Positions 24,045 to 28,219 of a DNA stretch of 64,000 nucleotides are shown piece by piece (position 1 is the stretch's first letter; every line of letters starts with the position of its first letter). The notes beneath the pieces were generated by a model that made no database searches, was not told the origin of the DNA, and worked only from the letters and a program-made list of their open reading frames with translations. Origin of the DNA: Alphaproteobacteria bacterium PA4 (GTDB lineage: Bacteria; Pseudomonadota; Alphaproteobacteria; Sphingomonadales; Sphingomonadaceae); contig NKIQ01000013.1 in assembly GCA_002256005.1 (NCBI GenBank), positions 1-64,000 on the forward strand. The letters run 5' to 3'. The position numbers and the translations under genes are program-made.

Positions 24045-24069
24045 GGAACCTCTCGGACAATGGCTCGTT
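24045..24069 (+). promoter_or_regulatory. Putative EcfG (general stress) promoter of the OmpA-like gene
   Basis: GGAAC (24045-24049), exactly 17 bases, then GTT (24067-24069), 43 bases before the ATG at 24113. GGAAC-N16/17-GTT is the known alphaproteobacterial EcfG consensus. Four more copies with the same 17-base spacer occur in the next 5 kb. Confidence 0.6.
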
Positions 24070-25259: not shown

Positions 25260-26042
25260 TCAGTGCCGCTGCAAGGCCTCGACCCCCGACATGATCTGGT
25301 CGACGATGGCGAGGTCGGACCCCAGCAGCGTCCGGTCGCGCGGGTTCATCGTGCCATCCTCGATCATCGCGACCAGCGCGGCGCGGGCGCGGCCGACCCG
25401 GCTCTTGATCGTGCCGATCGGGCATTCGCAGATCGCGGCGACCTCCTCGTAACTCATGCCGCCGGCGCCGACGAGCATCAGCGCCTCGCGCTGCAGCGCC
25501 GGCAATTGCAGCATGCCGCGCTGCACGTCCGACAGGGCGACATGCGCTTCCTGGTTGGCGGGCTCGGCCAGCAGCGCATCGGCAGTCAGATCATCCCATT
25601 CGCCCTTGAAGCGGGCGCGGCGCAACTGGCTGAAATAATGATTGCGCAGAATGACATAGGTCCAGGCCCGCATGTTGGTACCGGCCTGAAAGCGGCCGCG
25701 CGCCGTCCACGCCTTCATCAGCGTTTCCTGCACCAGATCATCGGCGATATCGCCGCCGCTGCAGATGGAACGGGCATAGATGCGCAGCTTGGGGATGACC
25801 TCGCCCAGCTGCCGCTTGAACTCCGTGTCGCTCAGCCCGTCGCGGGGCGGTTCGACCGTCGGTTCATCGGCGCCGAGCCGGGACAGGAGATCGACGAAGA
25901 CATCGGGCAGCGGCGCCGCCTCGGCTTGGGCATAGGCGATGCGCAGAAAGGCGCCGATGTCACGGACCGCCGGGGTCTGGTCGCCGGCGCCGCTCAGGCG
26001 CTTCGGCGAAGCAAGGGGACGGCCATAGGGTTTGCGGGACAT
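25260..26042 (-). CDS. ecfG: NepR-EcfG fusion: anti-sigma module joined to ECF sigma factor
   Basis: 260 residues in one frame. Residues about 28-58 (DIGAFLRIAYAQAEAAPLPD...FVDLLSRL) match the NepR anti-sigma pattern of helix, P-[VLI]-P-D-x-F-x-x-LL-x-x-L. After a short linker, residues about 72-240 are a complete EcfG-type sigma factor: region 2 (DDLVQETLMKAW, FQAGTNMRAWTYVILRNHYF) and region 4 (LPALQREALMLVGAGGMSYEEVAAI, GTIKSRVGRAR). Normally nepR and ecfG are separate, overlapping genes. In the linker I find no in-frame ATG, GTG or TTG, so the sigma part cannot readily start alone. Either this is a real fusion or one base is wrong. It lies 9 bases after phyR. Confidence 0.88.
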   Translation of the reverse strand: MSRKPYGRPLASPKRLSGAGDQTPAVRDIGAFLRIAYAQAEAAPLPDVFVDLLSRLGADEPTVEPPRDGLSDTEFKRQLGEVIPKLRIYARSICSGGDIADDLVQETLMKAWTARGRFQAGTNMRAWTYVILRNHYFSQLRRARFKGEWDDLTADALLAEPANQEAHVALSDVQRGMLQLPALQREALMLVGAGGMSYEEVAAICECPIGTIKSRVGRARAALVAMIEDGTMNPRDRTLLGSDLAIVDQIMSGVEALQRH

Positions 26043-26051
26043 GGATCTACC

Positions 26052-26858
26052 TCAGGCCGCGATGCGGGCGGTGGAATTGAAGAACAGCGCCTGGGCGATG
26101 GCTGCCTCGACACTGGCGACCTGGAAGGGCTTGGCGATCAGGAAGGTCGGCTCCGGCCGTTCGCCAGTCAACAGGCGTTCCGGGAAGGCGGTGATGAAGA
26201 TCACCGGCACCGAAGTCTGGGCGAGGATGGTGCGTACCGCATCGATGCCGCTGCTGGCATCGGCAAGCTGGATATCGGCGAGGACCAGGCCGGGGCCGGT
26301 GGCGCGGAAGGCGGCGACGGCCTCGCTGGCCGTGGCGGCGATGGCGGTCACGTCATGGCCGAGGTCGGTGACGATGCTTTCGAGGTGCAGGGCAATGATC
26401 GGCTCATCCTCGATGATCAGCACCCGCGAACGCGTCTGGCGGGCGATTTCCGCCAGCGCCTCGGCGATCAGATCCTGTACATCCCCCGGCGTGCAATCGA
26501 GCAGCCAGGCGGTGTCTTCGGTGGTGAAGCCGTCCATGGCACTGAGCAGCAGTGCCTGGCGCGACCGCGGCATCATGCCGGACAGGCGCTGGTCGACGAC
26601 CAGATCCGCCGTTTCGCCGGGCGCCGGCGCGTGCGCCGGAATCTGCACCGTCGCCGCGCTCAGATCGCGCAGGCTGTGGAAGGCACGGTACAGCCCCAGT
26701 TGCGGCGTGACGTCGACGGGGAACCAGCTGGGATCGGCAATGATGGCTTCCAGCGTCGCCGCCACCATGCCGTCCCCTGCCGTCTGTGAACCGCACAACG
26801 CGCGGGCATAGCGGCGCAGATAGGGCAGATGCGGCGCGATCGAAGCAGCGAGCGACAT
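26052..26858 (-). CDS. phyR: General stress response regulator PhyR
   Basis: 268 residues: an N-terminal sigma-factor-like domain (to about 140; LPYLRRYARALCG ... SRQALLLSAMDGFTTEDTAWLL) and a C-terminal receiver with acidic pocket IIEDEP, phospho-acceptor Asp195 (LVLADIQLAD), Thr in VIFITAF and Lys in LIAKPF. When phosphorylated, PhyR binds NepR and frees EcfG. The start at 26858 gives the canonical N-terminus. It is preceded by its own GGAAC-N17-GTT promoter, fitting autoregulation, and followed directly by the nepR-ecfG fusion. Confidence 0.95.
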   Translation of the reverse strand: MSLAASIAPHLPYLRRYARALCGSQTAGDGMVAATLEAIIADPSWFPVDVTPQLGLYRAFHSLRDLSAATVQIPAHAPAPGETADLVVDQRLSGMMPRSRQALLLSAMDGFTTEDTAWLLDCTPGDVQDLIAEALAEIARQTRSRVLIIEDEPIIALHLESIVTDLGHDVTAIAATASEAVAAFRATGPGLVLADIQLADASSGIDAVRTILAQTSVPVIFITAFPERLLTGERPEPTFLIAKPFQVASVEAAIAQALFFNSTARIAA

Positions 26859-26864
26859 TGACGT

Positions 26865-26889
26865 GGAACCTTCCGGAAGAATTGACGTT
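26865..26889 (+). promoter_or_regulatory. Putative EcfG promoter for the NepR-like/PhyP-like genes
   Basis: GGAAC (26865-26869), 17 bases, GTT (26887-26889), pointing right, 113 bases before the GTG start at 27003. It shares the 144-base divergent gap with the phyR promoter. Confidence 0.6.
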
Positions 26890-26945: not shown

Positions 26946-26970
26946 AACCCCCAAAGTCGTGTCGCGTTCC
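26946..26970 (-). promoter_or_regulatory. Putative EcfG promoter of phyR
   Basis: On the minus strand GGAAC (26970-26966), 17 bases, GTT (26948-26946), 87 bases before the phyR ATG. It matches the consensus used by EcfG and would make phyR and the sigma gene self-activating. Confidence 0.68.
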
Positions 26971-27002: not shown

Positions 27003-27188
27003 GTGAACCAGGATGAGCCCAGCCGACCGGTCCCGGTGCCATTGGTGCCGCCCAGCAACGTGGCCACGATGATGGCGGAGCGCAAGGCGCTGGGCGGATT
27101 GCTGGAACAGGCCTTTGCGCCCGTGCTGACCACGCCATTGCCGGATCGGATCGCGGCACTGCTGCGCGCACTCGATCACAAAGCCTGA
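27003..27188 (+). CDS. NepR-like small protein, second anti-sigma module
   Basis: 61 residues from a GTG at 27003. The C-terminal half, LLEQAFAPVLTTPLPDRIAALLRALD, shows the same helix-P-x-P-D-x-hydrophobic pattern as NepR. The N-terminal part (SRPVPVPLVPPSN) is likely disordered, as in known NepR proteins. Its stop overlaps the next ATG (TGATG), so it is coupled to the PhyP-like kinase. With the NepR segment fused to EcfG next door, this locus holds two NepR modules. Which one binds PhyR or EcfG cannot be told by eye. Confidence 0.75.
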   Translation: MNQDEPSRPVPVPLVPPSNVATMMAERKALGGLLEQAFAPVLTTPLPDRIAALLRALDHKA

Positions 27189-28219
27189 TGGACGGTTTCC
27201 GGTTGCCGGACGCGGTGCGCAGACCGCGGCATTGGTCCTTGTCGGCACGGCTGACGGCGGCACTGGCGCTGGCCATGCTGCCGCTGCTCATCCTTTTGCT
27301 GTTCATGGTCATCGACGACTGGCGGCTGGTCGATGCCATCATCACCCCTGCCCGGCTGTTCGCCATGGCCTTGCCGCTGCTGCTGTGGATGCTGGCAATG
27401 TATCTGACGACCATCGTCGCCCGCACGATGCTGGTCGAGCCCCTGCAGCAGATTCGCGCCATGGTCGAAAATCCCGATGCGCCCGTGTCGCTATCCGATC
27501 TTGGCAGCGCGGAAATGCAGGTGCTGGCCGACAGCATCGTGACGATGCGCGAGGCGGTGACCACGCACAGCAACGAGCTGGTGCTGGCGCTGATCGAACA
27601 GCAGCGGCTGACCCGCGAGATGCATCACCGCGTCAAGAACAGCCTGCAGATCGTGTCGAGCGTGCTGGCGCTGCACGGCCGCGAAGGCCAGTCGGCGGAA
27701 GTGGCGCAATCCTATGCCGCTATGCAGGCCCGGGTCGGCGCGCTGGCGCTGGTGCACCGCTGGATCTTCGACGGCGAAACCCTGTCGAGCGTCGATCTGC
27801 AAGCGCTGGGCGCCGAACTGGCCAAGGGACTGGAAATCAGCCTGGTCTCACCAACCCATCCCGAAGTACGCATCATCAGCGATGACCTTGAGCCGTTGAC
27901 GACATCGGCCGACGCCGCCATCCCGGTGGCCTTCCTGATCACCGAGGCGAGCAGCATCGCGGTGACGACTGCACCCGACGGGCCGCTGTTGCTGCGGCTG
28001 GGCGCGCGCCGCGATGGCGACAAGGTGCTGCTGACCATCGCCGCGGAAACGCTGGTCAACCGCAATCCGCTCGAAAGCCACAAGGAAACCGCCTCGGTGC
28101 GCATCATCCGCGGGATGGCGCGGCAATTGCAGGCGCCGATCAGCCATGTCGGTGACGCGGGCGTCCTGGAAATCTGCTTTGTCGACAGCGGCCGCCTCGC
28201 CTCGCTGCGCTCGCAATAG
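27188..28219 (+). CDS. PhyP-like sensor, HisKA_2 protein with degenerate ATPase domain
   Basis: 343 residues with two N-terminal membrane helices (about 20-42 and 56-78) and little periplasmic sequence between them. The HisKA_2 dimerisation motif is REMHHRVKNSLQIVSSVLAL (His146). The ATP-binding domain is poorly conserved: where the N-box should read like ELVTNAxKHA there is LITEASSIAV, and no DxGxG box is visible. The sphingomonad PhyP protein, reported as a negative regulator (probable phosphatase) of PhyR, has this kind of layout. It is co-translated with the NepR-like gene, opposite phyR. Confidence 0.82.
   Translation: MDGFRLPDAVRRPRHWSLSARLTAALALAMLPLLILLLFMVIDDWRLVDAIITPARLFAMALPLLLWMLAMYLTTIVARTMLVEPLQQIRAMVENPDAPVSLSDLGSAEMQVLADSIVTMREAVTTHSNELVLALIEQQRLTREMHHRVKNSLQIVSSVLALHGREGQSAEVAQSYAAMQARVGALALVHRWIFDGETLSSVDLQALGAELAKGLEISLVSPTHPEVRIISDDLEPLTTSADAAIPVAFLITEASSIAVTTAPDGPLLLRLGARRDGDKVLLTIAAETLVNRNPLESHKETASVRIIRGMARQLQAPISHVGDAGVLEICFVDSGRLASLRSQ

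Follow-up and report, generated by a model that had tools for sequence, protein, structure and literature searches.

A NepR domain joined in frame to EcfG at a sphingomonad phyR locus: a candidate self-inhibited general-stress sigma factor

How would the PhyR-NepR-EcfG partner switch work if the anti-sigma factor and the sigma factor were one protein? The canonical switch of S. melonis Fr1 and C. crescentus uses NepR and EcfG as two proteins, whereas in the window, the whole 64,000-nucleotide stretch of DNA analysed here, they are covalently joined; as originally predicted, such tethering would alter the switch. The locus shares with the canonical systems the three modules, a PhyR with a receiver domain, an HRxxN-type neighbour and EcfG-type promoter-like sites. 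Its genes and domains are the following.

25260..26042, minus strand: nepR::ecfG fusion gene, a single open frame of 260 aa (ATG start at 26042-26040, stop at 25262-25260)
25863..25961, minus strand: NepR domain, residues 28-60 (PF18557 and AlphaFold2 helices 29-42 and 47-55)
25821..25874, minus strand: linker, residues 57-74, from the NepR motif end to FKxxL of sigma region 2, start-free
25263..25820, minus strand: EcfG (ECF15) sigma part, with region 2 at residues 84-144, region 4 at 173-223 and a C-terminal helix at 243-259
26052..26858, minus strand: phyR, anti-anti-sigma response regulator (NF006623 at 333.9 bits, cut-off 240; PF22029, PF22233 and Response_reg)
27003..27188, plus strand: separate, weakly conserved nepR of 61 aa with a GTG start (PF18557 at 19.9/19.7 bits, below 25.7)
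27188..28219, plus strand: HisKA_2/HWE protein, PhyT/PhyP-like, with an HRVKN motif and no HATPase match

NepR and EcfG in one open frame

The fusion starts 9 nt past the phyR stop on the same strand, and a GAGGT stretch resembling a Shine-Dalgarno sequence overlaps that stop (by eye). The separate nepR is divergent from phyR and its own stop overlaps the start of the HisKA_2 gene (TGATG); in published work PhyP/PhyT counts as an HRxxN protein whose ATPase domain has degenerated (PMC5898713).

As originally claimed, one frame holds a NepR domain and the full EcfG sigma regions. The NepR region of the window protein aligns with PF18557 over residues 28-60 at 26.3 bits, barely above the cut-off of 25.7 (E 5.7e-6; 29.1 bits on the DNA), and the known contact residues are kept, L33, R34 and Y37 corresponding to S. 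melonis L32, R33 and Y36. A profile of 26 fused NepR domains, the window's included, clearly matched the PDB chains 2LFW_B (3.4e-15) and 3T0Y_B (9.1e-8) and weakly matched 5UXX_B (0.028) and 4QIC_B (0.044). For the sigma part, Pfam places Sigma70_r2 at residues 84-144 and Sigma70_r4_2 at 173-223, the best PDB sequence match is 5UXX chain A (4.4e-38), and TIGR02937 (sigma70-ECF) scores above its cut-off, with the five top-scoring NCBIfam models below theirs. ECF regions 2 and 4, the adjoining phyR and a place in the tree among sphingomonad EcfG proteins identify it as EcfG (ECF15). In the AlphaFold2 model of the fusion, the ten-residue pLDDT means are 72, 80 and 63 across residues 31-60, and pLDDT falls below 50 at residues 1-27 and 58-63, which flank the NepR helices. 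The placement of the domains relative to each other is poorly modelled (pTM 0.37), so docking of NepR onto its own sigma factor is not visible, and structure comparison was good for sigma region 2 only.

From after M1 to about residue 85, the window frame has no in-frame ATG, GTG or TTG, which confirms that its linker offers no start for a sigma-only product. Across the 26 fused genomes described below, the linker measures 11-26 residues (NepR motif end to FKxxL), and none has an in-frame ATG between the NepR motif end and 20 codons beyond the region 2 anchor. In 17 of the 26 this stretch contains no start codon whatever; the other nine have one TTG or GTG, six within region 2 and three just upstream of it. 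These counts led us to reject a hidden internal start for sigma. Given the start-free linker, the sigma part seems, as far as sequence can tell, to be produced only as the fusion.

Distribution and origin of the fusion

Other genomes with the same fusion, which the original prediction had proposed to look for, do exist: the fused frame is present in at least 26 genomes, which fall into seven GTDB genera (Pacificimonas, Polymorphobacter and Glacieibacterium among them), and 18 aligned relatives share 49-66% protein identity with the window fusion. A profile of 19 fusions was run over 397 family genomes sampled evenly from a larger group. EcfG was found at E<=1e-35 in 347 of them and, among the matches listed, the fusion in at least 22 genomes, each verified by running a NepR profile over the individual sequence; four congeners of the window genome (G003, G004, G016, G020) complete the 26. 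By genus, eight belong to the window genus (g1), five each to g84 and g106, four to g6 (Pacificimonas), two to g93 and one each to g4 and g13. G204 (g4), whose fused gene is cut by a contig end, stands outside the 26. A class-wide sample covered 385 genomes, 146 with an EcfG-like match, and 20 places were inspected. The in-frame NepR profile scores of ~44-60 bits are partly circular, the profile having been seeded with 18 of these fusions; the independent Pfam model PF18557 puts 13 of the 26 fused domains above its cut-off and nine below, with four unmatched at E<=0.1, and 15 of 19 translated fusion proteins match Pfam NepR at E<=0.05.

The 24 genomes of g1 comprise eight with the fusion, one with a degraded fusion (G022), eight with unfused EcfG only and seven without EcfG at E<=1e-35; this stress-response sigma factor is thus patchy inside a single genus. 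Seven of the eight unfused EcfG proteins were placed in the tree and form a separate lineage. G022 is nested in the fused clade and has mostly lost its NepR part, and its best PhyR match reaches 25.2 against a cut-off of 27; at this locus (L261, ~652-1480) the decayed NepR part and the lack of a PhyR match over the cut-off may be a joint loss. In both g106 and g84, five of six genomes are fused, and the sixth genomes (78% and 76% complete, respectively) gave no EcfG match. Two unfused members of the family that were inspected (G033, G095) have nepR divergent from phyR and an ecfG without a NepR domain. Sphingomonas-type EcfG proteins were also met on contigs titled Microvirga sp. SRT01 (L013) and Arthrobacter sp. 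TPD3018 (L078); L013 groups within Sphingomonas in the tree and L078 resembles L060, and the titles are probably wrong.

The fusion frame is genuine and no sequencing error. It is intact in 26 of 26 genomes from seven genera, a finding that refutes a read error and leaves the earlier suggestion of a one-indel origin unsupported; for the idea that a frameshift or an assembly error had merged two genes we found no supporting point, and its probability is negligible. The out-of-frame ATG in the window linker (GCC GAT GAA), originally taken for a former overlapping start, is there, but its own frame closes after 11 codons. Such an ATG occurs in only nine of the 26 fused linkers and is missing from 17, and the linkers vary in length (11-26 residues) across the seven genera, so we rejected it as a relic start. 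In two genomes of the sister genus g87 (L183, L184) the TGA stop of a separate nepR abuts the ecfG start codon ATG, both in one reading frame, and loss of a single stop codon would therefore suffice for fusion. This layout suggests a natural precursor state and an easier route than an indel, one that may have been the path taken.

The kind of fusion itself is already known, contrary to the novelty implied by the original prediction. The EcfG proteins of M. extorquens have been described as carrying a NepR-like N-terminal extension of ~55 residues, possibly an ancient fusion, whose role is given as unknown and which is said to be absent from Alphaproteobacteria other than Methylobacteriaceae (PMC4814048). 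That paper places none of the six ecfG genes of M. extorquens AM1 at the phyR locus and assigns an EcfG-type promoter to none of them. The sphingomonad fusion differs in standing behind phyR, in its well-kept NepR core and in being sometimes the sole NepR found. When Methylobacteriaceae-type N-termini were scanned with Pfam NepR, three of eight matched and none of the eight exceeded the cut-off. The tree of 86 sigma parts puts eight Methylobacteriaceae-type rows together in a separate starred clade (99/87), with a long-branch warning; these rows and the eight scanned N-termini share seven members, L232 being in the scan only and L231 in the tree only, and L230-L232, from G713, were filed with Methylobacteriaceae by tree position. 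A joint clade, and with it a common origin with the Methylobacteriaceae fusion, was rejected (p-AU 3.7e-7), in a test that takes the groups as fixed in advance of the tree, not strictly the case here, and with long branches among the Methylobacteriaceae rows. The separate clade and the rejected joint clade point to the sphingomonad form as a second, better preserved case. The sphingomonad fused rows are themselves split in the tree (three changes, with L186 scored as unfused there), and a single sphingomonad fused clade is not rejected (p-AU 0.153 for L186 + L099, 0.27 for L099 alone), L186 being treated as fused in the AU test. L186 is the second EcfG of G035 and has its own NepR-like extension; the 12 kb around it contain no phyR match. 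Within titles and abstract openings of the open-licence literature, subscription papers being mostly outside this scope, no NepR-EcfG fusion outside Methylobacteriaceae was found.

Selection, remaining NepR proteins and the state of the switch

Over 28 pairs of close relatives, which are not independent of one another, pN/pS is 0.18 for the NepR core (29 codons), 0.37 for the linker, 0.50 for the N-terminus, 0.32 for the C-terminus and 0.06 for sigma. On these sequence comparisons, the fused NepR core is under purifying selection. In an alignment of 19 fusions, D28, G30, L33, R34, A38, P46, L52, L53 and L56 never vary, and the position of S. melonis Y36 is F or Y in all 19; L32 and Y36 of S. 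melonis NepR mattered in cells, and R33A caused no drop in activity (PMC6599016). Were the NepR part a vestigial, functionless extension, Pfam scores straddling the cut-off, as they do across the 26 domains, could be expected, but a core at 0.18 with its known contact residues kept makes us give this idea very little credence.

A separate nepR divergent from phyR is present at the phyR locus in 12 of the 26 fused genomes and was not found there in 14, namely all five fused g106 genomes, the four of g6 and five of g1 (G002, G003, G012, G016, G020). Each of the four g6 loci has, besides the fusion, a small NepR2-like ORF after ecfG on the opposite strand, and G002 and G020 encode another NepR elsewhere in the genome. 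Two genome-wide profile searches found no second credible NepR in eight of the 26 genomes (G131, G195, G245, G285, G319, G003, G012, G016), of which G319, at 83% completeness, shows a single further weak NepR match (16.1 bits). Divergent small NepRs may hide from such searches, since profile A2 missed the separate NepR of the window, which was found by Pfam. Selection on the core, the missing separate nepR and the decay in G022 are each weak alone, and together they favour the fused NepR being a working anti-sigma domain. At the G016 locus (L178, 6672-7121), phyR is apparently reduced to the sigma-like domain, ending short of any receiver domain, with a stop that overlaps the fusion start; phosphorylation could scarcely switch a PhyR of this kind.

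We consider it somewhat probable (roughly 0.55) that the fusion is a self-inhibited general-stress sigma factor, held by a clamp in cis that PhyR-P opens and that relocks at reset. In unstressed cells, the tethered NepR helices would clamp regions sigma2 and sigma4 of their own chain. Under stress, phosphorylated PhyR would present its sigma-like domain and capture the NepR helices, freeing sigma for RNA polymerase; the freed sigma would keep NepR and PhyR-P attached through the linker of 11-26 residues, and as PhyR-P decays NepR would drop straight back onto its own sigma. The ratio of sigma to fused anti-sigma would be fixed at 1:1, leaving no free pool of that anti-sigma to titrate.

This reading gains from the 14 of 26 genomes with no nepR beside phyR and the eight of 26 with no other credible NepR. 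It also gains from the tight core of g106, where the fused NepR is the only one we found, with pN/pS of 0.069 (bootstrap 0.015-0.136; sigma region 2 of g106 is at 0.040), against 0.214 (0.102-0.382) in g84, where a separate nepR is kept and itself scores 0.175; this contrast involves 29 codons and five related genomes on each side, with overlapping intervals, and 2% of bootstrap draws reverse the order. Against it counts g6, which also has no nepR beside phyR and yet has a fused core that is not tightly held (0.230, 0.103-0.378), its NepR2-like ORF being present. A separate nepR persists in the window and in 11 more of the fused genomes, so cis inhibition need not be the sole control. The fused NepR does not move as a separate protein, and with a weakly conserved separate NepR in the window genome a normal partner switch is possible there beside the fusion. 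Binding data from M. extorquens bear on the clamp in both directions (PMC4814048). In two-hybrid and in vitro assays only EcfG1 minus the NepR-like extension binds NepR, as expected if the extension occupies the site, and both EcfG1 isoforms present in vivo pulled down NepR, a result hard to square with an occupied site.

The retention of a separate nepR in 12 of the 26 genomes would also suit a division of labour in which the separate NepR inhibits and the fused NepR mainly traps PhyR-P as negative feedback. S. melonis NepR2, a second NepR encoded beside ecfG according to its numbering, interacts with PhyR and reduces the response (PMC6599016), albeit as a separate small protein, unlike the fusion. 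In the eight genomes where no other credible NepR was found sigma must still be held in check, and we regard the trap as unlikely. Action in trans, on another copy (a head-to-tail dimer or domain swap) or on an EcfG paralogue, appears less probable again: the 11-residue linkers of G003, G012 and G020 might strain docking in cis, and a second EcfG match occurs in G020, G035 and G179, but 20 of the 22 fused genomes of the family sample have a single EcfG match (E<=1e-35) and local concentration would favour cis.

Sigma and anti-sigma also share one chain in IutY/ECF243 and ECF36, which differ from the fusion in having other types of anti-sigma, membrane parts, (proposed) proteolytic activation and no PhyR switch (PMC8999054). 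By analogy the sphingomonad protein could be an inactive precursor from which a protease releases sigma by cutting the linker. Proteolytic activation has been described for IutY (ECF243) and suggested for ECF36 (PMC8999054), and the fusion linker changes more quickly than the NepR core and is partly disordered in the model (residues 58-63). The linker sequence is unconserved, however, and phyR remains adjacent to the fusion, which leaves this route with a very small chance.

If the cis clamp is right, the three-part stress switch may act as a self-locking protein in species seemingly without a separate inhibitor. We put forward tentatively, at somewhat below even odds, that g106 and some congeners of the window genome have no dissociable anti-sigma factor: the tethered NepR would both lock sigma and receive PhyR-P, the active species on RNA polymerase would be sigma-NepR-PhyR-P with the latch intramolecular, and a fusion would have been reached at least twice in Alphaproteobacteria. 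The discussion of the NepR-like EcfG extension in PMC4814048 leaves open whether it "provides additional features". The second fusion has a well-kept NepR, and its genomes range from those that keep a separate nepR, via a degenerate-looking one, to those in which none was found; with this natural range of versions, the role of the extension can be tested directly. The fusion also touches on a design question, namely whether the threshold and reset of a partner switch depend on a free pool of inhibitor.

Promoter-like sites around the operon

Two EcfG-type promoter-like sites lie between the divergent transcription units.

26946..26970, minus strand: GGAAC-N16-GGTT, upstream of phyR and the fusion
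26865..26889, plus strand: GGAAC-N16-CGTT, ahead of the divergent unit with the separate nepR and HisKA_2 genes

Among 26 phyR loci (25 fused genomes plus G204, with G016 left out), six have a promoter-like site on the phyR strand and 20 have none, against 0.15 expected from mononucleotide shuffles. The window contains three GGAAC-N16/17-CGTT sites against 0.41 expected, two of them at this operon and the gene beyond. For the self-inhibited stress sigma factor, the six loci with a site count in favour, the 20 without one and the genome-wide pattern against. Genome-wide, the EcfG promoter pattern shows no excess, with 27 matches against 47 for the reversed control, and on this basis we rejected an attempt to draw up an EcfG regulon for this genome. 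The two sites at the operon, 26865-26889 (plus) and 26946-26970 (minus), face each other, and the two transcripts would thus overlap at their 5' ends; both sites recur in an identical arrangement in G021 (L185). A perfect GGAAC-N16-CGTT at 24045-24069 on the plus strand stands ~44 nt ahead of the likely ATG (24113) of a gene for an outer-membrane protein, apparently OmpA-like by eye, which is a candidate stress-response target adjoining the operon.
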